In this document: positions 5,758 through 18,166 of the stretch, in pieces | Numbering within the stretch: the first letter of the stretch is position 1 | How the letters are laid out: every line of letters starts with the position of its first letter | DNA from: Halobacteriales archaeon | GTDB lineage: Archaea > Halobacteriota > Halobacteria > Halobacteriales > SKNY01 | NCBI GenBank assembly: GCA_007118975.1 | Contig: SKQO01000124.1 | Coordinates: 1-32,035, forward strand | Length of the DNA stretch: 32,035 nt | Direction of reading: 5' to 3' | Made by a program: the position numbers and the translations under genes | Notes under the pieces: model-generated | The model's input: the letters and a program-made list of their open reading frames with translations, nothing else | What the model was told of the DNA's origin: nothing | Databases searched by the model: none

Positions 5758-6531
5758 ATGACTGAAGCACGACCGACCGTGAACGCCCGCCTCCGTCGAA
5801 TGCTTCGCTTTGCCACCCACCAGCCGTACCATCGTCTGGTGGATCTCAACTACCGGCTGGGGGCAGTGGCGCTGCCGAAACGAGTCGGATCGACGACGTT
5901 TCGTAGTTACGATCTCCTCCATCTCCACGGACGCGATTGGCTTCGTGAAGCATTACTCGACGACGTCGACGCTGGGGACGTGGTGATCGACGCCGGGGCT
6001 CACACAGGTGTTTATTCGCTCGCCATTGCTTCGATCGAGCCAGATGCATGTGTCCATGCGGTCGAGCCCGAACCGGTCGCCGCAAATCGTCTCCGCCGAA
6101 ACGTCTCGCTCAACGCGTACGAACCTCGAATCGCGGTCCACGAACTCGCACTCGGCGCCGGAGAAGGGCAAGTTCCGTTTTTCCGGTCGGTGTATCCGGA
6201 GATGGGATCGCTGCTCCCTGATCGGGCAGCGTTCGCGGAGGCATTTGTCAGGGGAACGGTCAAGGTGACGGTTACGACGCTCGACGAAGGTGTCGCGAGC
6301 GGCCGGTTCCCGCCGCCAGACCACGTGAAAATCGACGTCGAAGGGGCGGAGGCCGACGTACTGGCCGGGGCCGCGACCACCATCTCCGAGCACCGACCGC
6401 ACCTGTACATCGACATCCATGACCGTCCGGACCACCCCGGTCATGCTGCCGCAATCCGGCGGCAACTGTGTTCGTGTGGCTATCACCTCAGAGAACGGGG
6501 TGACGCGATCATCGCGCACCCAGGTGACTGA
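5758..6531 (+). CDS. FkbM-family SAM-dependent methyltransferase
   Basis: The 257-residue protein has a Rossmann methyltransferase fold. VVIDAGAHTGVYSLAIA at 75-91 is the SAM-binding glycine loop (motif I), and AVEPEPVAANRLRRNV follows with the acidic residue that binds the ribose. KIDVEGAEADVLAGA from 191 is the diagnostic FkbM signature. The family O-methylates sugars, polyketides and glycolipids. In haloarchaea such genes often sit in surface-glycan clusters, but this one has no glycosyltransferase neighbour, so its substrate is open. It is divergent from the membrane protein at 5647 and lies 71 bases before the helicase-like gene. Residues 100-120 conserve the typical EP..AN.LR.N pattern. 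Confidence 0.9.
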   Translation: MTEARPTVNARLRRMLRFATHQPYHRLVDLNYRLGAVALPKRVGSTTFRSYDLLHLHGRDWLREALLDDVDAGDVVIDAGAHTGVYSLAIASIEPDACVHAVEPEPVAANRLRRNVSLNAYEPRIAVHELALGAGEGQVPFFRSVYPEMGSLLPDRAAFAEAFVRGTVKVTVTTLDEGVASGRFPPPDHVKIDVEGAEADVLAGAATTISEHRPHLYIDIHDRPDHPGHAAAIRRQLCSCGYHLRERGDAIIAHPGD

Positions 6532-6573: not shown

Positions 6574-6579
6574 TTTATT
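6574..6579 (+). promoter_or_regulatory. TATA-like box of the helicase-like gene
   Basis: TTTATT is centred about 27 bases before the GTG at 6603. No ribosome binding site is present, so a leaderless mRNA starting at the GTG is likely and supports that start codon. Confidence 0.5.
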
Positions 6580-6602: not shown

Positions 6603-8708
6603 GTGCAGATCGCGCCAGGGGCCTTCGAGACCGCCATCAGAAACCGGTCGTTTCGACTTGCGGTGTTTGACGTCGAAATGCGCCAATGGACTGACCAGTG
6701 GACCCTGGACGCGCCGATCGCGCTCGAAACGGCCATCAGCACGTTTGCGGACCTCGACGTCTGTCATCGCCCCGATGGCGGCCTATGGCTACCGCTCCAC
6801 GAGGAGGAAAGCGCCGAGCTGTCTGGCGAGGTGCTGATCGTCGACGACGCCGCGAATCCAACCACGGTGTCGTTTTATGACTTCTCCCGACGGGAGCCAG
6901 TGCAACTTCCGATCGACGAGTGTCGAACCCTGTACCCGGCCTGGCGGGTGCGATTTTGGACCGGGGACGAGGAGCCCCCGTCGCCTCCTGGATTCGTCAC
7001 GGCTCACCCGTCATCCGAAACCCCGTTTCCAGCATCCGGGGCGATCAGCGGCGGAGACGGGGACGCAGATGCATGGCTGGACCGCGTCCGATCCGCGCTC
7101 GTGGCCGGGCGGGAACGGGAGCGCGAGGATTACCGAACCACGAGTGACCGGGAATCGACCCCGGATGACGCGCTCACCGGACTCGTCCCCGCTGGTCTAG
7201 CGGTCGACGATTACGGCCAGCAGATCCTTAAGCTGCGACTGCCGGTCGACCACGCGGCAGCCTCGGTGGAGGACGCAGATATCGACCAGGGCGACGATGT
7301 GCTCGTCGACGGGCCTGACGCCGCTGGCTTACCCGTGGAGGCAGCCGTACTCGATTACGATGACGAAACCGTCTCACTCGGTGTCTACTGGGATACGGCG
7401 AGCGGTCCGGAAGCCGAAACGACACTCACCGACGACACCAGGACCGATTTCCTCATCAGGCCGTTGGTCCGGACAAGACGATTACGTGCCGTAGAGTCGT
7501 CACTCGAACATCTATCGCGGACCGACAGGGCGAAACAGGTGTACGCGGGGACGGCAACCCTTCGCTTTGCCGACGCGCCCGATCCGCCGGTCGATATCGA
7601 ACTCGATCGCTACCAGCGGCGGGCTGTCAGCCGTGCACTCGCTGCCGAGGACTGTTGTGTCGTCCATGCGCCGCCGTGGACGGGTGCGGGGCGGGTGATC
7701 GGCGGCATCGTGCGCGGATGCCTGGAGACGAATCGGACGGTCGGTCTCTTTGCGCCGACGAGCCATGCGATCGATACGGCACTGGGCGAACTCGTCGGCA
7801 AGGATGGACTGTTGCCGGATCTCAAAACGTACGCCCGGGTGGACGACGGGACCTCACCCACCACGCCTCACGCGGCCGATCTTGTGGGGGTTCCATTGGA
7901 TCTCGACCGATCGGTTGACATCACCGTCGATGTCGGCATTCTGGATCAAGCCGGTCGGTGCGACGTCGCGACGGCGGCGAGAGCGTTTGCCGTCGCTGAT
8001 CGACTCGTCCTCGTTGGCGATCCCCACCAGTTACCGCCACGTGAACCACTCGTTCCGGCCGATGCGGATCTTCCCCCCTCGATCTTCGATCACCTGGCGA
8101 CCGCCTACGACGGGGACCTCCGCCAGCGGCTCCGTTGTCAGTATGCGATGAACCAGGGGATTGCGATGTATCCGAACCATGCGTGGTACGACGGGGAACT
8201 GATTCACGGCTCCGCGAACCGGAGATGGGCGATCGACGGACTGCCGCCTCTCGCGGTGGTCGATGTCGACGGAGACGTTCGCCGGACACCCACCGGATCC
8301 TGGTTTTCCGATGCCGAGTGTGATCGGATCGTGACGGAACTCCAACGCGTACTCGATCGGAGTGTCGAACCCGCGGACATCGGCGTGGTGACGCCTGCCT
8401 CCGCACAAATCGGCAAAGTGCGAGCCGCGATCCGTGATGCCATCCCCGAGGCCGCCGAGGAGATCGTCGTCGACAGGCCAGCCAACGTGTCGTGTATCGG
8501 ACGGGACGTGATCATCGTCTCGCTGCTCGAGGGGGCGGATCGTGAGGAGGAGCAATGGACGAAATCACGGCTGAACGTCGCACTCACCCGGGCGCGCAAG
8601 CGGCTCGTCCTGGTGGGGAACTGGACGAGCGCCCGGGAGTCCGGTCCCAAACGGCCGGTCGCCGCACTGGCAGCGTTCCTCGCCGATCGCGGATTGCTCC
8701 CGACGTGA
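6603..8708 (+). CDS. UPF1/DNA2-like superfamily 1 helicase homologue with degenerate catalytic motifs
   Basis: The protein has 701 residues. Residues 1-about 330 are an acidic N-terminal region I do not recognise. The C-terminal half follows the superfamily-1B helicase plan: a Q-like motif (LDRYQRRAV), motif Ia (LFAPTSHAIDTAL), motif III (LVLVGDPHQLPP), SIFDHL, and motif VI (RLNVALTRARKRLVLVGN from 656). Key catalytic positions are changed. Walker A reads APPWTGAG at 356-363 instead of GPPGTGKT. Walker B reads DQAG at 448-451 instead of DEAG. The usual QYRM reads QYAM at 513-516. Motif V reads SCIGRD near 630-635 instead of a QG pair. The frame is open throughout, so this is not a decayed pseudogene. 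It probably cannot hydrolyse ATP normally and may be a nucleic-acid-binding or regulatory pseudo-helicase. GTG start chosen from the TATA spacing; the first ATG is at residue 27. Confidence 0.85.
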   Translation: MQIAPGAFETAIRNRSFRLAVFDVEMRQWTDQWTLDAPIALETAISTFADLDVCHRPDGGLWLPLHEEESAELSGEVLIVDDAANPTTVSFYDFSRREPVQLPIDECRTLYPAWRVRFWTGDEEPPSPPGFVTAHPSSETPFPASGAISGGDGDADAWLDRVRSALVAGREREREDYRTTSDRESTPDDALTGLVPAGLAVDDYGQQILKLRLPVDHAAASVEDADIDQGDDVLVDGPDAAGLPVEAAVLDYDDETVSLGVYWDTASGPEAETTLTDDTRTDFLIRPLVRTRRLRAVESSLEHLSRTDRAKQVYAGTATLRFADAPDPPVDIELDRYQRRAVSRALAAEDCCVVHAPPWTGAGRVIGGIVRGCLETNRTVGLFAPTSHAIDTALGELVGKDGLLPDLKTYARVDDGTSPTTPHAADLVGVPLDLDRSVDITVDVGILDQAGRCDVATAARAFAVADRLVLVGDPHQLPPREPLVPADADLPPSIFDHLATAYDGDLRQRLRCQYAMNQGIAMYPNHAWYDGELIHGSANRRWAIDGLPPLAVVDVDGDVRRTPTGSWFSDAECDRIVTELQRVLDRSVEPADIGVVTPASAQIGKVRAAIRDAIPEAAEEIVVDRPANVSCIGRDVIIVSLLEGADREEEQWTKSRLNVALTRARKRLVLVGNWTSARESGPKRPVAALAAFLADRGLLPT

Positions 8709-8761: not shown

Positions 8762-9199
8762 ATGAGCGAGCGGGGCAGGAAGGTGGGGTTCGTCGGGCGG
8801 GCATCGATGGTGATTGTGAGCGCGACACTCCTTCTGACGGCCAGCTTTCTGGGCATCCTGGCGACGATCAACCGAGAAATCGCGGGGGTCCAGTCCAGGA
8901 TCCCGTGGTATCTCCTGATCGCGGGGCTGGCGTTCGTTACCACGATCGTCCTCCTCGAGGATTACGGCGCGACGGGACGGGAAATCATCGTCACGTCGAC
9001 CGTCGTGGGGATCCTGGGGTTCATCGTGGGATCGCTCAGTGTCGAGGGAGTCATCTTTACCATCAGGTTTCCGGAGGATGTGTTCGTTTCACGACTGGTG
9101 CTTTACTTCCTTGCAGCAGGGCTCATCGGCACCGGTGTCGCCTACTGGGCGCTCCGACACTGGCGGGAATTTACCGGGAAGGAACCACAGCGACTCTGA
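8762..9199 (+). CDS. Small four-helix membrane protein, unknown function
   Basis: The 145-residue protein has a short basic N-terminus (MSERGRKVGFVGR) and four hydrophobic segments at about residues 14-37, 47-62, 73-95 and 106-127, followed by a charged tail. I do not recognise the family with certainty; the layout matches small conserved haloarchaeal membrane proteins of unknown function. The reading frame remains open upstream to 8555, but that part overlaps the helicase-like gene and does not resemble protein. The ATG at 8762 sits directly before a normal membrane-protein N-terminus. It lies 53 bases downstream of the helicase-like gene on the same strand and could be co-transcribed with it. 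It converges with the HerA-like gene. Confidence 0.78.
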   Translation: MSERGRKVGFVGRASMVIVSATLLLTASFLGILATINREIAGVQSRIPWYLLIAGLAFVTTIVLLEDYGATGREIIVTSTVVGILGFIVGSLSVEGVIFTIRFPEDVFVSRLVLYFLAAGLIGTGVAYWALRHWREFTGKEPQRL

Positions 9200-9352: not shown

Positions 9353-10633
9353 TCAGGTCGAACGGAGGCGGTACATGGTCAGCCGCAAGTGATAGGCCAC
9401 CAGCCTCGCGGTATACGTGACCAACTGGGTGAGCTCGATCAGGCTGCCGGCAACGCCATCGCGGTCGGCCGGACGCGGGGGTGGTTGCGGCCGCCCAGTC
9501 TGTTGTGGTCGACTGCGCGACCGTCCACTGTCGCTTCCCTGCTGATCGACGGTCCGGAGAATGCTTCGAAGCTCTTCGACCTCTGCCGCGAGCACCTCCG
9601 CTCGGCGATGTTCGTTCTCGTAGGCCTCGACCAGTTCCTCGGCTTCGAGGGAATCCGGCTCGATGTCGGTCCCGTCCTCGTCCTCGAGGTCGAACGTTTC
9701 GATCCCGATGTCGTCGCCGCTGGTCCGGTCGCTCGATCCGTTCGCCGACGTCGTGATGACGTCGAGACTCGATAGCTGGTCGCTGGCGGCGTCCGCGAGG
9801 GCAGTTGCTGCCCCCCGGTCGGATCCCTGTTCGTATCGATCGAGCCCCGGGGTTGCCCCCGCATCAAGCGTCCGTTTGCGTTTGAACTTCACCCGCTCGA
9901 CCGTGTCGTCCCAGTCCGTCATCAGGATGCCTTCACCGGCCTCGAAGTCCTGGATGGCAGTCGCTTTCTCGCTCCCGAGGATGTTCCTGACGACGTTCAG
10001 GTCGGTCTCCCAGGTGAGCCGGTGCCAGACCATCCAGTCGCACTGGGTGATGAAATCCTTGTCGACCGAGGAGGGGCGTTGTGACATCCCGCAAATCCCC
10101 AGACCACGTTTACGCCCCCGTTTGGCGACCCGTTCCAGGAGGGCGGCGAGATCCGTGCTGCCACCGGTCTGTGGGAGATACTCCTGCATCTCCTCGACCA
10201 TCAGCAGGAACGGCTTTCGGACGTCCTTCTCCAGCTGGTAGAGCTCCGTGACCACGGATTCGATCACCGCCTCCGCATCGTCTGCATCAAAATAGCCCGA
10301 CACGTCGAGCACGACCGGGACGTTTCCCTCGAGGGCCGTAACCGCGATCTCGTGGCCGTCCTCGGCGGCGACGACCTCGTCGCAGTGGTCGTCAGCGCCG
10401 ACGTGGAGCATCTCGAATTCCTCTTTCAGTCCGTAGTACTCGCCCTCCGTGTCGATAATGAGCAAGCCGTACTCCCGCTCAAGCAACTCTTCCGCGATGA
10501 CGCTCGCGGTGTTGGATTTCCCGGATCCGGATTTCCCGGTGATAAATCCACGTCCTGTCAGGATCTCGATCACCGGCAAGGTCTTGGCATCCTCGGTGAC
10601 CACGATCCATTCGTCGCGTCGATCCCCCGCCAT
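9353..10633 (-). CDS. HerA-like (DUF87) DNA translocase-type ATPase with C-terminal extension
   Basis: The 426-residue protein starts with a compact HerA/FtsK-superfamily ATPase. GFITGKSGSGKSNTA has Walker A at 33-40. LLIIDTEGEYYGL follows, and FLLMVEEMQEYLP at 142-154 is Walker B with a double glutamate. KRGRKRGLGICGMSQRPSSV contains the conserved glutamine and arginine of the family. After about residue 270 comes a Ser/Asp/Glu-rich linker, then a probable coiled coil (EELVEAYENEHRRAEVLAAE, about 330-360), a Pro/Gln/Arg-rich stretch, and an amphipathic C-terminal helix. HerA pumps DNA with the nuclease NurA in end resection, but no nurA is visible here, so the role may differ. ATG at 10633 is chosen over the TTG just before it. 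Confidence 0.88.
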   Translation of the reverse strand: MAGDRRDEWIVVTEDAKTLPVIEILTGRGFITGKSGSGKSNTASVIAEELLEREYGLLIIDTEGEYYGLKEEFEMLHVGADDHCDEVVAAEDGHEIAVTALEGNVPVVLDVSGYFDADDAEAVIESVVTELYQLEKDVRKPFLLMVEEMQEYLPQTGGSTDLAALLERVAKRGRKRGLGICGMSQRPSSVDKDFITQCDWMVWHRLTWETDLNVVRNILGSEKATAIQDFEAGEGILMTDWDDTVERVKFKRKRTLDAGATPGLDRYEQGSDRGAATALADAASDQLSSLDVITTSANGSSDRTSGDDIGIETFDLEDEDGTDIEPDSLEAEELVEAYENEHRRAEVLAAEVEELRSILRTVDQQGSDSGRSRSRPQQTGRPQPPPRPADRDGVAGSLIELTQLVTYTARLVAYHLRLTMYRLRST

Positions 10634-10707
10634 CAATTGCTCAAACCTTCGTGGATTAGCGTAATAGGTTTACGGGCTGGTCCGACGCGCGGCTGACGAC
10701 GGCGGGC

Positions 10708-12102
10708 TCATTCGAGCGACCCCGCGGCCTCCCGCACCAGTCCGTCGATGATCTCGGGGGTGGTCGGATGGAAGGCCCGGTCCGGAACGTCGCGCACGTC
10801 CATGCCTGCCTCGATTAGCACCTGCATCGTCTTGGCCATGGTATCTGCCTGGTAATGGACGCCCACGTACCCGAGCACCGTGCCGTCCCCGGCGACGACC
10901 AGTCGGGCGAGGCCGCCGGGAACGTCCTTCACCTTGAACACCCCGTCGTCGCTCGCATACCGTTCCGCGACGATGGGATCGTACCCCTCCTCACGCGCCT
11001 CGTCCTCGGTAAGCCCGAGACGAGCGTACGGATAGTTGCCCAGCCCCGAGAAGATCACCTGGTGTTTTGTGAACGTGAACGGCTGTGGCGTGTTGCCCTC
11101 GCGTTGGGCGAGGAGGTTGTCCGCGGCGTGATAGCCCTGCTCCTTTGCGACGTGCAAGATTGGTTCCCACCCGTTCGCATCGCCCACGACGTACACCCGC
11201 TCGTCCGCGACCGACTGGAGTGTCGGCATGATCAGTTGGCCGTCCTGCGGGAGCGACGTCCGTTCGAGGCCGAGGCCGTCGAGTGACGGACGTCGACCGG
11301 TGAACAGATACAGCTCTTCGGCATCGATCGTGCGCTCTTGGCCATCTTCCTCGATGGTCAGTCGGACGTCGCCCGACGACGTCCGCTCGAGTTCCTGCTC
11401 GTAGGCGTGTGTCCGGATGTCCACCCCGTAGGCCTCCCGATAGTGATCGAGGATCCAGTCGCCGATCGCGGGATCAACCGCATCAAGCGGCTGCGCGTCG
11501 TGCTCGATCACCGTCAGATCCACGTCGCCCACGGTGGCGAGGTACGGCACCAGCTCCAGTCCCACGGCACCGAACCCCATGACAACGCCACTATCGGGGA
11601 ACGATCTTGCGTCGAGCACGTCCGCACTGGTCTGATACTCGACGTCCTCGATCCCCGGGAGCGGCGGGACGTTGACGGTCGATCCCGTCGCAATGAAGAC
11701 GTAATCTGCCTCGATCTCTCTCCCACCGACTGCGACGACACGATCGTCGACGAACTCGGCGGTATCGTGCAGAAAGGTCACGTCATCGCGGCCGCCCATT
11801 CCGTCGACAGCAGCCCGCCGGTGGCTCGCAAACGACTGTACGTGGTCGTTCTTCCGATCCACGATCGCATCGATGTCGGGTGAAATCTCGGCCTCGAGGC
11901 GCTCGTCCGCGTGTGCTTGATGCATGTGTGCCCCAGCGGACAGAACGTCCTTCGAGGGCATGCAGCCCCGGAGAATACACAGTCCCCCTCCCGGGTCGCC
12001 GTCGTCGATCAACGTCAGCTCCACGTCCGGCTCCTCGACCAATCGCTCCGCCACCGCGACACCTGCACTCCCGTAGGCGCCAATGACGACCACATGATCC
12101 AT
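10708..12102 (-). CDS. FAD-dependent pyridine nucleotide-disulfide oxidoreductase, dihydrolipoamide dehydrogenase-like
   Basis: The 464-residue protein has the layout of class I flavin disulfide reductases. The N-terminal FAD loop is VVVIGAYGSAGVAVAERL. The redox-active pair is in GGLCILRGCMPSK (C42 and C47). YVFIATGS and SGVVMGFGAVGLELVPYLA (NAD-binding loop) follow, then VYVVGDANG for the second FAD contact. A dimerisation domain ends in FHPTTPEI, matching the catalytic His-Glu of the HPTxxE motif. Family members are dihydrolipoamide dehydrogenase, mercuric reductase and soluble transhydrogenase. No 2-oxoacid dehydrogenase E1/E2 or mercury gene is nearby, and CILRGC differs from the textbook CLNVGC, so the substrate is unassigned. 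ATG at 12102 starts directly at the FAD fold; a TTG at 12126 is less likely. Confidence 0.88.
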   Translation of the reverse strand: MDHVVVIGAYGSAGVAVAERLVEEPDVELTLIDDGDPGGGLCILRGCMPSKDVLSAGAHMHQAHADERLEAEISPDIDAIVDRKNDHVQSFASHRRAAVDGMGGRDDVTFLHDTAEFVDDRVVAVGGREIEADYVFIATGSTVNVPPLPGIEDVEYQTSADVLDARSFPDSGVVMGFGAVGLELVPYLATVGDVDLTVIEHDAQPLDAVDPAIGDWILDHYREAYGVDIRTHAYEQELERTSSGDVRLTIEEDGQERTIDAEELYLFTGRRPSLDGLGLERTSLPQDGQLIMPTLQSVADERVYVVGDANGWEPILHVAKEQGYHAADNLLAQREGNTPQPFTFTKHQVIFSGLGNYPYARLGLTEDEAREEGYDPIVAERYASDDGVFKVKDVPGGLARLVVAGDGTVLGYVGVHYQADTMAKTMQVLIEAGMDVRDVPDRAFHPTTPEIIDGLVREAAGSLE

Positions 12103-12446
12103 GACAGAAGATTTCGGGTCGATCAATTAGCCGTTTTGTTCGGTCGGACGTCGAAGGTACAAGGCCGGTATCCAATCAATCCGCGGGGGCCGGCAATCGC
12201 ATGTCGGTGCGGATCCTAATCTGAGAACCTCCAGTGGCCGTGAAAACTGCCACAATTCACCCGATAGGCGCACTCAGCCGGGCCCCATCCAGCTATCGAT
12301 GACGCCCAGTCTCGTTCTCACGGACATTCCATCGTATGTCTGCAGTACGCGTTTCGACCCGGCAATGGGACAGACGATTATCGGCGATCGCCATCGACTG
12401 AACGGGCAGTATCACACCCGTCGCTACTTGATCGCCGGATTTTTCA
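12103..12446. other. Intergenic stretch without a supported gene
   Basis: This stretch of 344 bases lies between the oxidoreductase start and the end of the KDG kinase gene. It should hold the promoter of the oxidoreductase gene and any terminator of the kinase gene. A 68-codon open frame on the plus strand (12299-12505) runs into the kinase gene and does not look like protein. I see no tRNA and no clear repeat. Confidence 0.6.
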
Positions 12447-13400
12447 TCACCGGTCGATACCCCCCGTTTCGGCCTCGACGACCGCCTCGACCTCTTCACG
12501 GGTAATGACGGCGATGTCGCCCGGGATGGTCCGTTTGAGTGCCGCCGCGGCCGCGCCGTATTCGAGTGCCTCGACCATGTCGTGGCCAGTAAGTCGATAT
12601 CCCAGCAGCACGCCGAGGAAGGCGTCGCCGGTACCGATCGGATCGTAGGTGTCCGAGTGGAACGCTTCCTGTTCGAGATACTCCCCCTCGTGGACCGCAG
12701 CTGCCCCTTCGGCACCTCTGGTCAGAATGACGGTCTCGCAGTTCCAGGACGACGCCAGCGATTCGGCCACGGTCCGTGGCTCGCCTTCCACCTCGAGCAC
12801 GGACGCCGCGTCTCGTTCAGCCACGACGAGAACCTCAATATCGGGGAGGAGCGACTCGATCACCTCCCGGGCCGTCGACGGATCCCACAGCTTCGACCGA
12901 TAGTTCACGTCGAAGACGGTCCGCGTCTCCGCCTCGTTCGCTAACCAGAGCAGGTCGCTCGTCGTCGTCTCGAGCGTCGAGGACAACGCGGGCGTGATAC
13001 CGCTCGTGACGAACAACTCGGCGTCACGGATGCGTTCCGTCGGAAGCTCCTCGGCTGTGGCAGTCGTGACGGCCGCACCGTCGCGATCGTAAATCACGTT
13101 CGTCCCGCGTGGCTCGCCCGCGAATTCGATGTAGTACGTCCCCTGGCGGCCCTCCTCGGTCCAGACGACATCCGTTTCGAGCCCGTAACTGTGGAGGTAG
13201 CTGGTGACCCGACGCCCGAGCGGGGAAGCAGGCAGTTTGGATGTCCACAGCGCATCGGCCCCGACCCGGGCTGCAGCGGTCGCCACGTTGCTCTCTGCGC
13301 CCGCAACCCGAACGTCGAGCGTGTCCGTCGTCTCCAGGCGGGTCTGGCCCGGTGGGGAGTAGCGTAGCATCGACTCGCCGAAACTCACAAGCTCCGTCAT
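12447..13400 (-). CDS. kdgK: 2-keto-3-deoxygluconate kinase-like PfkB sugar kinase
   Basis: The 317-residue PfkB/ribokinase-fold protein is of normal length. It begins TELVSFGESMLRYSPPG, the N-terminus usual for haloarchaeal KDG kinases. VAGAESNVATAAARVGA is the sugar-binding loop, VFDVNYRSKLWD the conserved central motif, VILTRGAEGAA the nucleotide region, and DPIGTGDAFLGVLLG at 253-267 carries the catalytic base D259. KDG kinase makes KDPG in the semi-phosphorylative Entner-Doudoroff pathway used by haloarchaea for glucose. Family resemblance makes KDG the likely substrate, but another keto-sugar is possible. The ATG at 13400 is preceded by a GGAGGG ribosome binding site and a TATA-like box at 13453-13459, so this gene appears to have a short leader, unlike several neighbours. 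It lies 68 bases downstream of mutL. Confidence 0.87.
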   Translation of the reverse strand: MTELVSFGESMLRYSPPGQTRLETTDTLDVRVAGAESNVATAAARVGADALWTSKLPASPLGRRVTSYLHSYGLETDVVWTEEGRQGTYYIEFAGEPRGTNVIYDRDGAAVTTATAEELPTERIRDAELFVTSGITPALSSTLETTTSDLLWLANEAETRTVFDVNYRSKLWDPSTAREVIESLLPDIEVLVVAERDAASVLEVEGEPRTVAESLASSWNCETVILTRGAEGAAAVHEGEYLEQEAFHSDTYDPIGTGDAFLGVLLGYRLTGHDMVEALEYGAAAAALKRTIPGDIAVITREEVEAVVEAETGGIDR

Positions 13401-13452
13401 CAGTCCCCGTCCCTCCGAGCTCCCTTCATGCGTAGGCCTGCACGACTGGCGG

Positions 13453-13459
13453 TAATAAG
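13453..13459 (-). promoter_or_regulatory. TATA-like box of kdgK
   Basis: Reverse strand CTTATTA lies in the gap between the mutL stop and kdgK, about 56 bases before the kdgK ATG. It predicts a leader of about 30 bases containing a GGAGGG ribosome binding site. kdgK can therefore be transcribed apart from mutL. Confidence 0.5.
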
Positions 13460-13468
13460 TCTCCGCGA

Positions 13469-15364
13469 TCAATCGCGCCGTCGCTCCGCATGGCCGGGGT
13501 AGGTCCGTTCGAATCGCTCGGCGAGCTCGTCCTCGTCGATCCGAATGAGGACGGGTCGGCCGTGCGGACAGGCATAGGGATTCTCGCAGGCATCGAGCCG
13601 CTCGAGGAGATCGACAATTGAGCCATCGGAGAGGATCGTGCCCCCTTTGATCGAGGGATGGCAGGCGAGGTCGGCCGTCAACTCGTCGGCGATGGCGTCG
13701 ATTGGCTGGGCTGGATCGGCATCGTCGACGGCTGCGTTAATGGCGTCACGAATGACTGTCGGCGCCATCGGTCGGTCGAGGATGGCGGGTACGGCCGTCA
13801 CCTCGACAGTGCCTTCCTCGGCCACTTCCGCAACAAATCCGAGCGTCGACAGCGCGCGCTCGAGCCCGCGGAACAGGGCTGCCTCGCTCGTCGTCACCGA
13901 AACGCTGACAGGATCCATCAGTTCTTGCCGATCGGCCGTGTCGTCGACACGGGCCCGCAGTTGCTCGTACGTTATCCGCTCGTCTGCTGCATGTTGATCG
14001 ATCAGTACCAGCCCCTCTGGATCCTCGGCGACGACGAACGTTTCGTGTAATTGCCCGAGCACCCGGAGTGGCGGAAGTCGTTCGTAAGATGGCGCCGGCT
14101 CGGACCCATCGAGGGTCTCCTGGTCCAGGCTCGGGGAGAATTTGCGCGACGGGTCGGGACGTGGTCGAGGGGACGGTGTTGGGTCCGCACTCGAGGTTGG
14201 GGATTCCGTTCGCGGGATGGATGTTGTCCCGGCGTCCCCGCCACCGCGTTCTAACGGTTCTGCCTCCGATTCCGATGGGCTGACATCCGTTTCCGCCGGT
14301 CGACCAGTGCCTCGCGGCGCTGTCGAGCGAATGATCCCTGCCTCGCTCAACGTTGCCGCAATCGCTGTCTCGACGACCGTTTCGACGGCATCGGGGTCGT
14401 CGAACCTGACCTCGAGTTTGCGGGGATGGACGTTCACGTCGATGGCAGCCGGATCGAGCTCGCAATCGATCACGGCGAAGGGGTACCGATCGGGGGCCAG
14501 CTGGTTTCCGTAGGCGGCGATGATTGCGTCCCGGATGGGTTTTGCGCGCACGAACCGCCCGTTGACGAATGTCGACAGAAATCGCGGGCGAGACCGGGTC
14601 ACTTCGGGATCGCTCACGTAGCCGTGGACGCGCTCCACTGGCCCCGCATCCGAAGGTGTATCAACGTGAAGCATCGACTCCGCCACCTCCCGGCCGTACA
14701 CCGCGAGGAGTGCCGCCGGCAGGTTTCCGCGCCCGTCGGTCTGAAAGACGTCGCGCCCGTCGTGTGTCAGGGAAACGGCCACGCCGGGATTGGCCAGCGC
14801 GTAGTGGGTAACGATGCGGTTGACGTGGTCGAACTCCGTCTGGGCCGTGCTGAGAAACTCCCGGCGGGCCGGCGTGTTGAAAAACAGTCCTTCGACCTCC
14901 ACGGTCGTGCCGACCGGACAACCTGCTGTCGATTCCTCGACGATCTTCCCGCCTTCGACGTGGACTCGATATCCGTCCGTCGCTGCGGTGTGGGGCCGGC
15001 TGGTGATCGTGAGCTTGGCAACGGTCCCGATCGCGTGGAGCGCTTCGCCGCGAAAGCCGTAGCTCTCGATGCCCGTCTGGAGATCCTCGATCGTTCGCAA
15101 TTTGCTTGTCGTGTGCTGGCGGACAGCGGTCCGCATGCCGTCGGGCGGCATGCCGACCCCGTCATCCCGGACGACGATCCGCTCGATTCCACCGTCCTCG
15201 ACACGCACATCGATCCGCGAGGCGCCGGCGTCCAGACTGTTCTCGACGAGTTCCTTGACGACCGAACCCGGTCGATCGACGACTTCTCCGGCCGCAATCT
15301 GCTCGATCGTCCCCTCGTCCAGGGTGACGATGTCGGGCGGCGTTTCGGTGCTCCCGTCGCTCAC
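13469..15364 (-). CDS. mutL: DNA mismatch repair protein MutL with intact endonuclease motif
   Basis: The 631-residue MutL has an N-terminal GHKL ATPase: ELVENSLDAGA at 38-48, DDGVGM at 67-72, YGFRGEAL at 102-109, then the transducer domain up to about residue 335. A Pro/Ser/Asp-rich linker leads to the C-terminal dimerisation domain. There DQHAADERITYE at 456-467 matches DQHA-x2-E-x4-E, the metal-binding nuclease motif absent from E. coli MutL. LACHPSIKGG and CPHGRPVLIRI complete the metal site. It should nick the daughter strand in methyl-independent mismatch repair with MutS. The GTG at 15364 has a TATA-like box 26 bases upstream; the TTG at 15391 would lie inside that box. mutS is 108 bases upstream on the same strand. 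Confidence 0.96.
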   Translation of the reverse strand: MSDGSTETPPDIVTLDEGTIEQIAAGEVVDRPGSVVKELVENSLDAGASRIDVRVEDGGIERIVVRDDGVGMPPDGMRTAVRQHTTSKLRTIEDLQTGIESYGFRGEALHAIGTVAKLTITSRPHTAATDGYRVHVEGGKIVEESTAGCPVGTTVEVEGLFFNTPARREFLSTAQTEFDHVNRIVTHYALANPGVAVSLTHDGRDVFQTDGRGNLPAALLAVYGREVAESMLHVDTPSDAGPVERVHGYVSDPEVTRSRPRFLSTFVNGRFVRAKPIRDAIIAAYGNQLAPDRYPFAVIDCELDPAAIDVNVHPRKLEVRFDDPDAVETVVETAIAATLSEAGIIRSTAPRGTGRPAETDVSPSESEAEPLERGGGDAGTTSIPRTESPTSSADPTPSPRPRPDPSRKFSPSLDQETLDGSEPAPSYERLPPLRVLGQLHETFVVAEDPEGLVLIDQHAADERITYEQLRARVDDTADRQELMDPVSVSVTTSEAALFRGLERALSTLGFVAEVAEEGTVEVTAVPAILDRPMAPTVIRDAINAAVDDADPAQPIDAIADELTADLACHPSIKGGTILSDGSIVDLLERLDACENPYACPHGRPVLIRIDEDELAERFERTYPGHAERRRD

Positions 15365-15386
15365 ACGGTTGCCTCCACTCGCGAAG

Positions 15387-15393
15387 TACAAAA
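15387..15393 (-). promoter_or_regulatory. TATA-like box of mutL
   Basis: Reverse strand TTTTGTA is centred 26 bases before the mutL GTG at 15364, in the 108-base gap after mutS. It suggests mutL has its own leaderless transcript in addition to any read-through from mutS. Confidence 0.45.
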
Positions 15394-15472
15394 GGGGCGC
15401 TGATGAGCGTGCTGCTAGCCTGGGTGACGGGTTTGATGTACTTTCTCAAGTCGTCTGATCGCCCGGGTGCCG

Positions 15473-18109
15473 TCACTCCTCGAGGCGATCTTGCCACTCG
15501 GCGATCCGCGCGACGAGGTCGATCGGGCGTTCGGCCTCGACCTCGAGTTCCCGCAGCTCGGCGAGTACCGACTCCGTCCCGGGCGGGACCCCTTGCTGTT
15601 CGCCCCCATCGGCCGTCGCGTCCGGTCGAAACTCTCCGGCTGCGACGTCGAATACCGCCTGGACCGGTTCCGTATCGTCGCCACCCCGCGCCTCGACGGG
15701 GTTGTCAGCGCGCAGCTGCGCGAGTACCTCGTCCGCACGGTCGGTCACCGGCTCCGGGACGCCCGCGAGACGCGCGACGTGGATCCCGTATGACCGATTT
15801 GCCGGGCCAGGTTTGACCCGCCGAAGAAACGTTACGTCGCCGCCGGCCTCGTCGACTGCGACGTGGACGTTTCGTACGCGTGGCAGCCGATCCGCGAGTT
15901 CCGTCAGCTCGTGATAGTGGGTGGCAAAGAGCGCGTAGGCGCCGATCCCGTTGTGGAGGTATTCGGTGGCGGCCCACGCGATCGACATCCCGTCGAACGT
16001 GGCAGTCCCCCGGCCGACTTCGTCCAGGATCACCAATGATTCGTCCGTCGCCGAGTGTAGAATGTTCGAGAGTTCCTGCATCTCCACCATAAACGTCGAG
16101 CGACCGTGTGCCAGCTCGTCGAGCGCGCCCACCCGTGTGTAGATGCCGTCCACCAACCCGATGCGCGCGCTGGCGGCGGGGACGAAACTCCCGACGTGGG
16201 CGAGCAAAGTGATCAACGCCGTCTGTCTGAGATAGGTCGATTTCCCGCTCATGTTCGGGCCGGTGACGAGCAGGAAGGCCTCCTCGGGGGTGAGCCGGAC
16301 GCTGTTGGGTACGAACTCCGTCGTCGCCTCGACTACCGGGTGCCGGCCATCTTCGATGTCGATCCCCGCCCCCGGTTCCGCCAACTCCGGCCGCGACCAG
16401 CCGGCCGCCGCGGCATGGGTGGCGAGTGCGGCCAAGGTATCGAGTTTGCCCAACGCCCGGCCGGCCGCCTGCAACGTGGGTGCCCGTTCGCCGATCCGGT
16501 CGCGAAGATTCACGAAGAGTTCGTGTTCGCGTTCGGCCCGGGCGGTTTCTAACTGGAGAATGTCCCGTTCTCGCGCCTCAAGTTCGTCGGTCGTATACCG
16601 TTTCGAACTCTTGAGCGACTTGATCTCGCGATACGACTGCGGCACGGCGTCGGTCTCGGAGTTGCCGACCTGGATGTAATAACCGTCAGTTCGATTCCGG
16701 TCGACCTGGAGATGCGTGATCCCGTGTCGCTCCTGTTCCCGCGCCGCGAGCCTCTGTATCCACTCGAGGGCCGCTTCGTGCTCGTCGATGAGTTTGTCGA
16801 GCTCGGGATCGTAGCCGCGCTGGAAAATGTCGCCTTCCTGGATCGTCCGCGGGGGGTCCTCCCGGATCGCGCCGTCGAGGGTCTCCCCCACTTGGACGAG
16901 GATATCCCGGTCGAGTTCGTCCAACACGTTCCCCAGGGGGGAGTCGGCGAGTTCCGGGTCGTTGGCGATGACCTCCTCGATAGCGGGGAGACGGTAGAGC
17001 GTTTCCCCGATCGATCGCAGGGCCCGGGGGTCAGCGCTCCCCCTGACGGCGCGGTTTGCGAGGCGGGCCAGATCCCCCACGTCGCTCAGTTCGTCGCGAA
17101 GCCCCTCCCGGGCGAGTGGGGCTGCCACGAACGCCTCGACTCCGTCCCGACGCTCGACCAGGAGTTCGCGATCCCGCCGCGGCCGCTGGAGCCACTCGCT
17201 GAGGGTGCGTCGTCCCGGCGTCGTGACGGTCCGATCGATGACATCGAACAACGCAGTTCCCCCTTCCGTCATCGGGACAGTCAGTTCGAGGTTGCGCTGC
17301 GTGGTGAGATCGAGGGCGACCTCTTCGGCATCGCCGATCCGCGTCAATCGGGCCATTGCCGCGAGGACGCCGCTGCCGGTCTCCCTGGCGTACGTCAGCA
17401 CTGCGCCCGCTGCCGCCACCTCGGCACGCGGTTCCTCATCGAGGCCGAGACTCTCGATGGTCTCGCGGCCGAACTGCTCGGCGACCGTATGGGCCGCCCG
17501 GCCTGGCGCGAACGCGTCCGCATCGAGCTCGGTGAGTCTGGCGTCGATTTGCTCGGTGACGTGCCTGCACAGTCGATCCTTCTCCCGCAGCGTGGGGCCC
17601 AGCAGAATCTCGACGGGGTCGTACCGGTGGCAGGTTGAAAGCGCCCGCTCGAGTGCCTTCTCGCCGGTCGTTCGGGCAATGAGAAAGCGCCCGGTCGACA
17701 GCTCGGCCGCCGCAATGCCGATCACGTTTTCCGCTGGTGACGCGAGCGCCATGAGGTACCGGGCAGAAGCGTCCGGGGTGTCGATCAAGGTGCCCGGGGT
17801 GACAACTCGGGTAATCTCCCGGGCGTGCCCATCTTCGGTTTCGTACTGGTCGGCGACGGCCACCCGATACCCGCGATCGACGAGCGCCTGGAGATACGGT
17901 GTCAGTTCCGTGAGCGGGACGCCGGCCATCGGGTATTTCTCGCCGCCGGAGCTTTTCTGTGAGACGTTCAGATCCAGTTCCCGTTCGACCAGCTCTGCGT
18001 CCGGGCCGAAAAACTCGTAGAAATCACCGCATTGCATGGCCAGAATATCGGCTTCGACGGATTCCTTGAGAGCGAAAAATTCCCCGACGATTCCCTCGGC
18101 CGTCTGCAT
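15473..18109 (-). CDS. mutS: DNA mismatch repair protein MutS
   Basis: The 878-residue protein has the complete mismatch-recognising MutS1 layout. CGDFYEFF places the F-x-E mismatch-contact motif at F30-Y31-E32. Connector, lever and clamp domains follow (ITHLQVDRNRTDGYYIQVGN in the clamp/lever region). The ATPase has GPNMSGKS at 617-624 (Walker A), MVEMQELSNIL, LVILDEVGRGT with D696-E697 (Walker B), and ALFATHYHELTEL. After about residue 800 an acidic Gly-rich linker leads to a C-terminal helical tail. The presence of FxE separates it from archaeal MutS2 and other MutS-like proteins lacking mismatch recognition. The start is ATG 18109, with GAGGGAGGG directly before it; an upstream in-frame ATG at 18142 adds eleven basic residues not expected in the family. 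Confidence 0.96.
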   Translation of the reverse strand: MQTAEGIVGEFFALKESVEADILAMQCGDFYEFFGPDAELVERELDLNVSQKSSGGEKYPMAGVPLTELTPYLQALVDRGYRVAVADQYETEDGHAREITRVVTPGTLIDTPDASARYLMALASPAENVIGIAAAELSTGRFLIARTTGEKALERALSTCHRYDPVEILLGPTLREKDRLCRHVTEQIDARLTELDADAFAPGRAAHTVAEQFGRETIESLGLDEEPRAEVAAAGAVLTYARETGSGVLAAMARLTRIGDAEEVALDLTTQRNLELTVPMTEGGTALFDVIDRTVTTPGRRTLSEWLQRPRRDRELLVERRDGVEAFVAAPLAREGLRDELSDVGDLARLANRAVRGSADPRALRSIGETLYRLPAIEEVIANDPELADSPLGNVLDELDRDILVQVGETLDGAIREDPPRTIQEGDIFQRGYDPELDKLIDEHEAALEWIQRLAAREQERHGITHLQVDRNRTDGYYIQVGNSETDAVPQSYREIKSLKSSKRYTTDELEARERDILQLETARAEREHELFVNLRDRIGERAPTLQAAGRALGKLDTLAALATHAAAAGWSRPELAEPGAGIDIEDGRHPVVEATTEFVPNSVRLTPEEAFLLVTGPNMSGKSTYLRQTALITLLAHVGSFVPAASARIGLVDGIYTRVGALDELAHGRSTFMVEMQELSNILHSATDESLVILDEVGRGTATFDGMSIAWAATEYLHNGIGAYALFATHYHELTELADRLPRVRNVHVAVDEAGGDVTFLRRVKPGPANRSYGIHVARLAGVPEPVTDRADEVLAQLRADNPVEARGGDDTEPVQAVFDVAAGEFRPDATADGGEQQGVPPGTESVLAELRELEVEAERPIDLVARIAEWQDRLEE

Positions 18110-18110
18110 G

Positions 18111-18120
18111 TCCCTCCCTC
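18111..18120 (-). promoter_or_regulatory. Ribosome binding site that fixes the mutS start
   Basis: Reverse strand GAGGGAGGGA ends one base before the ATG at 18109. It contains two Shine-Dalgarno-like repeats, the outer GAGG about 7 bases from the ATG. It supports the internal ATG over the ATG at 18142. Confidence 0.6.
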
Positions 18121-18166
18121 GGATCTCACGCCTCAAAACCATACGTGATTCGGGGTGAAAGTGTGC

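Follow-up and report, generated by a model that had tools for sequence, protein, structure and literature searches.

The fold of superfamily 1 (SF1) helicases is reused without a working motor in the inactive subunits of the RecC/AddB type, which belong to the SF1A lineage and are obligate subunits of a nuclease-helicase complex. Pseudohelicases are rare but have already been described; in the literature that we searched, only two such proteins are described, PriA of Deinococcus radiodurans (PMC4504706) and Utp25 (PMC9539457). D. radiodurans PriA is the retained orthologue of a normally active helicase, its loss of helicase motifs is clade-wide, and it was named a pseudohelicase; laboratory experiments showed that ATPase and unwinding activities are lost and that DNA binding and the contact with DnaB are kept (PMC4504706). 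Utp25 (Def) is derived from a helicase of the DEAD-box type (SF2), arose by duplication and divergence, and has vestigial motifs and a non-catalytic role in eukaryotic ribosome assembly (PMC9539457).

The gene described here adds a different helicase family and the archaea to these cases. The DNA that we analyzed (the window; 32,035 nucleotides) is the whole of contig C58 of a haloarchaeal MAG (G000, 78% complete). The frame of the gene is open throughout its 701 codons, without stops, and its GTG start lines up with the ATG at which the intact orthologues begin. The encoded protein matches the Pfam families AAA_12 (E 2.3e-20) and AAA_11 (E 1.8e-9), both above the Pfam cut-offs, and, in a search of PDB sequences, SMUBP-2 (E 3e-28) and UPF1 (E 4e-18), so we assign it to the UPF1/SMUBP2/DNA2-type family of SF1; its score against TIGR00376 (IGHMBP2 family helicase) is 112 bits, below the curated cut-off of 349. 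An intact frame and a UPF1/DNA2-like fold had been proposed in a preliminary description of this DNA; the frame is confirmed, and both searches confirm the family. The same description called the acidic N-terminal 330 residues unrecognised; no Pfam family matches them, but they are not unique to this protein and correspond to the N-terminal half of the family itself, which the intact orthologues share (28–33% identity between inactive and active copies; 24–46% between active copies). The TATA-like sequence upstream of the gene (Table 1) is taken as a candidate promoter because of the typical haloarchaeal promoter spacing; its placement is consistent with an expressed leaderless gene, and the intact orthologues of genomes G337 and G370 have a TTTTATA box in a comparable position. 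AlphaFold predictions for the full length and for the core only, each from two usable sequences, had low confidence throughout (pLDDT 38 and 43), too low for use.

Table 1. Features of the pseudohelicase locus (window positions; aa, residues of the window protein; "congener", the inactive protein of G001).
Feature	Position	Strand	Remark
TATA-like TTTATT, candidate leaderless promoter	6574..6579	+	~24–29 bases upstream of start codon
Pseudohelicase gene, 701 aa (UPF1/SMUBP2-type SF1 homologue, catalytic motifs lost)	6603..8708	+	
N-terminal half, aa 1–330	6603..7592	+	no Pfam family; common to intact orthologues
Q motif LDRYQR, aa 334–339, Q338 retained	7602..7619	+	alignment; kept in window protein and congener
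Walker A replaced, APPWTGAG, aa 356–363 (family GPPGTGKT)	7668..7691	+	congener APPWTGVR
Motif Ia degenerate, APTSHAIDTAL, aa 384–394 (family AHSNQAVDNLL)	7752..7784	+	congener SSTDKTLATLL
Walker B DQAG, aa 448–451 (family DEAT)	7944..7955	+	congener DRAA
Motif III LVGDPHQLPP, aa 470–479, largely kept, Q476 retained	8010..8039	+	
Motif IV QYAM, aa 513–516 (family QYRM)	8139..8150	+	congener QYEL
Motif V lost, IVVDRPANVSCIGRD, aa 621–635 (family VTVDTVDSFQGGERE)	8463..8507	+	
Motif VI SRLNVALTRARKRLVLVGN, aa 655–673, kept; putative arginine finger R663 retained	8565..8621	+	
Small membrane protein, 145 aa, four hydrophobic segments (4-TM)	8762..9199	+	same neighbour in G001, G337, G026, G037
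HerA-like (DUF87) ATPase, convergent	9353..10636	-	conserved neighbour in G001 and G337

We compared the motifs of the window protein and of its homologue in the only congener compared (G001, also the only other genome of the family in our set; a MAG, 66% complete, that matches record SKNY01000072.1, labelled Salinarchaeum sp. CSSed162cmA_311R1) with those of 30 haloarchaeal relatives that have intact motifs. The losses of the Walker A lysine and threonine, the Walker B glutamate and the QYRM arginine are exactly as the preliminary description read them; over a longer stretch of motif II, the family sequence DEATQA is DQAGRC in the window protein and DRAATV in the congener. For motif V, a glutamine replaced by isoleucine at about residue 632 had been reported; the loss is real and larger than this, with the invariant F629, Q630, G631 and E633 reading V, S, C and G, but isoleucine 632 falls in a variable column of the alignment, which puts the reported position two residues off. 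The family's TVDSFQGGE is RPANVSCIG in the window protein and RVDRTCCRA in the congener; the SFQGxE signature of the active enzymes fails in the window protein (NVSCIG). Motifs Ia, III and VI had been described as kept, which does not hold for Ia: SNQAVDN reads TSHAIDT, and a loop of ~11 residues after the motif is deleted in the window protein and is also gone in the congener. Motif III is kept in the window protein (GDPHQLPP for the family's GDHKQLPP) and degraded in the congener (GDPIQSIE), and motif VI (LNVALTRARKRLVLV), with R663 in VALTRAR, is kept in both inactive copies and is the best preserved motif of each.

K362, T363, E449, R515, Q630, G631 and E633 are among the residues that are invariant in the 30 relatives and lost in both species. 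As is known from UPF1, the residues lost include the lysine that binds phosphate, the threonine that serves as a magnesium ligand, the catalytic glutamate, an arginine that acts on the gamma-phosphate and the glutamate that contacts the ribose, which makes hydrolysis of ATP very unlikely. Of 73 invariant columns, both inactive copies keep 26, one copy keeps 17, and both have lost 30; the two copies have the same new residue in 10 of these 30, including G356A and G359W (P-loop) and G631C (motif V). In UPF1-type helicases, motifs Ia and V contact nucleic acid; with both lost, the case for a role in canonical nucleic-acid binding is weakened, and canonical tracking along nucleic acid is unlikely.

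The two inactive proteins share 38% identity over 700 aa and have lost the same functions; the replacement P-loop, HAPPWTG, is identical at 7/7 positions and VALTRARKRLVLV at 13/13. The shared losses and the exact HAPPWTG indicate that the P-loop was altered before the two lineages split; as read from these alignments, the inactivation dates to the common ancestor of two distantly related species, and recent decay in one strain is ruled out. A sequencing or frame artefact is ruled out as well, since two independent assemblies both show the intact frame. Outside the genus we examined ~60 distinct relatives, taken from plasmids and from searches of genomes of the order and class; all of them carry GPPGTGKT, and every one that was aligned also carries DEA[T/S/A] and QYRM, so that the losses are not a matter of chance. 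In the alignment of homologues that the preliminary description had proposed as a check, the inactive copy stands apart and does not cluster tightly with any intact homologue. No third inactive member was present among the strong matches listed for 295 genomes of the order (query P0001) or, with motifs read on the best few matches, in 394 genomes of the class (query P0002; all matches below 1e-50 listed). Searching for HAPPWTG-coding DNA turned up hits in IMG/VR and in 14 further genomes of the order; the loci retrieved from these (one for most of the 14 genomes, all nine of the viral ones) have no similarity to the window protein. The inactive form is known from two members, both from incomplete MAGs.

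In a tree of the family, the two inactive copies form one clade with 100% support beside their closest intact relatives, the proteins of G026/G037 and of G337/G370 (the latter 34–36% identical to the congener's protein). The gene order in G337 is intact helicase, small 4-TM protein (56% identical) and convergent HerA-like ATPase (69%), that is, the order that surrounds the inactive gene in both G000 and G001; in G026/G037, the intact helicase gene adjoins the 4-TM gene in convergent orientation. Synteny and the tree establish that the inactive proteins are, at the level of sequence, orthologues of these active-looking helicases. That another family has intact orthologues at this locus argues that the ancestor was active, and the shared gene order argues that the inactive gene occupies the ancestral locus of the active enzyme. 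The HerA-like, PfkB and MutL genes of the window (9353–18142) also have the same order in G001, which supports true synteny of the region. A gene for an FkbM-type methyltransferase (5758–6531, same strand) ends 71 bases upstream of the pseudohelicase gene; its position in G001 is taken by a Cys/Met-metabolism PLP enzyme, so the methyltransferase does not qualify as a conserved partner.

Haloarchaeal plasmids commonly carry full-length intact relatives (L104–L109), with unrelated neighbors; one of them is near DrmE and DEAD/DEAH helicase genes (DISARM-like). A plasmid or phage origin of the window gene was rejected because the six plasmid relatives that we read all have intact motifs and phage records gave no match; a conserved operon for the active family was rejected because the neighbors vary widely. 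Mokosh or another defence system was also rejected, the helicase similarity being general only: of the MkoA profile of this anti-phage system, the C-terminal helicase part alone matches (77 bits, profile 791–1081 of 1112), and no Mokosh nuclease or kinase partner was found among the neighboring proteins scanned with Pfam.

The sequences of the two inactive copies retain the mark of selection on a protein. Their identities at codon positions 1, 2 and 3 are.54,.60 and.35 (chance,.31,.26 and.29), and, where the amino acids are identical, fourfold sites agree at.34 (.30 by chance). By NG86, dN is.66 and dS is 1.9, giving a dN/dS of ~.35, which, with dS saturated, is a rough upper guide only. A simple neutral simulation at the same divergence gave 11% amino acid identity and ~11 stops per lineage, compared with the observed 38% and none. 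The codon-position signal and the simulation argue that the protein was under selection after the motor was lost; purifying selection on both inactive copies since their split is well supported for these two members. The preliminary description had proposed selection for a non-catalytic role, for example nucleic-acid binding, partnership with an active helicase or service as a decoy: its first element, loss of catalysis under continued selection, stands, the first example is weakened in canonical form by the loss of motifs Ia and V, and the other two would be candidate roles.

The pattern of constraint, as measured by these identities, changed after inactivation. In the helicase core, the inactive pair is 41% identical compared with 52–60% in comparable active pairs (the closest pair, G337/G370, excluded), and in the N-terminal half the values are 32% and 24–46%, respectively. 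Within the inactive pair, RecA1 (the P-loop domain) lost most (35%) and residues 481–560 stayed at 49%. The node-to-tip paths of the inactive copies, estimated from tree distances, are ~7 times (core) and ~3 times (N-terminal half) those of their active sisters.

An intact gene that both species kept after the motor was lost probably serves a function for which no motor is required. The reading that we favor, and consider probable, is that the product is a pseudohelicase, that is, an active UPF1/SMUBP2-type enzyme that was inactivated in the ancestor of the genus and persists as a selected, non-motor binding or scaffold protein. In this scenario, the active helicase of the common ancestor would have lost its ATP-hydrolysis machinery, and the gene would have stayed where the active enzyme is still encoded in other families. 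The product would then have remained folded and under selection; it may still engage the ancestral partners through its N-terminal half and its second RecA-like domain (the region of motif IV and the motif VI segment with its arginine), with the P-loop domain as degenerate structural filler. We infer the absence of ATPase activity, the correct folding and the scaffold role, as well as the function and partners of the window protein.

The fast evolution of the inactive lineage is also what the early stage of a slow loss of function would look like; the helicase may have become dispensable and under relaxed constraint, with its frame not yet broken in two lineages. The bias of the changes toward the core, the continuing erosion of motif III and other core residues in G001, and the presence of an intact paralogue elsewhere in G000 (contig C5, L055) would fit; however, we regard this explanation as unlikely, because both frames are open although third positions are near chance and because the HAPPWTG and 13-residue segments are unchanged between the copies.

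The C5 paralogue, which is more distant and has GPPGTGKT, DEAT and QYRM, suggests another role for the inactive protein, as the partner of an active helicase (e.g., this paralogue) to which it would give R663 or which it would regulate; inactive subunits are known to contribute to or regulate other ATPase complexes, and the preservation of motif VI is in keeping with this. We consider such a partnership improbable: UPF1-like helicases act as monomers, the C5 gene is not adjacent to the pseudohelicase gene, and G001 (66% complete) yielded no such paralogue. It is likewise a slim possibility that the helicase was recast in this one genus as a fixed non-motor part with a re-specialised P-loop (HAPPWTG), maybe in a membrane nucleic-acid complex with the 4-TM protein and the HerA-like ATPase.

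The 4-TM protein, for which we sought family names and found none, and the HerA-like ATPase adjoin in several haloarchaeal families, with the helicase present or absent. An intein (Pfam Intein_splicing, E 4e-17) splits the HerA-like gene beside the inactive helicase in G001 (L056:2619-5147) and is absent from the window copy. That the pseudohelicase is a component with these two proteins, e.g., of a membrane DNA-handling complex in which the HerA-like ATPase (partly similar to CedD, a DNA-translocating ATPase) replaces the ancestral motor, is suggested by the shared gene order but is improbable, because the pair adjoins without the helicase in G027 (C1:642006-643559) and G086 (C1:2313350-2314867), HerA-like genes are present in 16/17 genomes tested, so that the helicase link may be chance synteny, and most active homologues stand alone. 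Membrane association via the 4-TM protein is possible; the pair without the helicase makes gene order weak evidence for it, and a link between the two proteins is a guess from that order.

Under the pseudohelicase reading, the sister families, whose orthologues at this locus have an intact motor, provide a natural comparison: intact and inactivated forms of one orthologous locus offer a direct view of the surfaces that remain under constraint after ATP hydrolysis is lost. Confirmation would imply an important non-motor role for the ancestral haloarchaeal enzyme.

Compared with known systems, the window protein has the same end-to-end domain architecture as the uncharacterised haloarchaeal branch (~740 aa) of the UPF1/SMUBP2 (IGHMBP2)/DNA2-like SF1 helicases; it shares with UPF1/SMUBP2-like enzymes the Q motif, motif VI and, largely, motif III, and has a positional orthologue in G337, but in this genus Walker A, the Walker B Glu, motif Ia, the motif IV Arg and motif V are all lost. 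In contrast to RecC/AddB, no nuclease-helicase complex was found for it. In contrast to Utp25/Def, the intact orthologue and the inactive copy share one locus in different families. The closest evolutionary parallel is D. radiodurans PriA, from which the window protein differs in belonging to another helicase family, in being archaeal and in being known from sequence alone.
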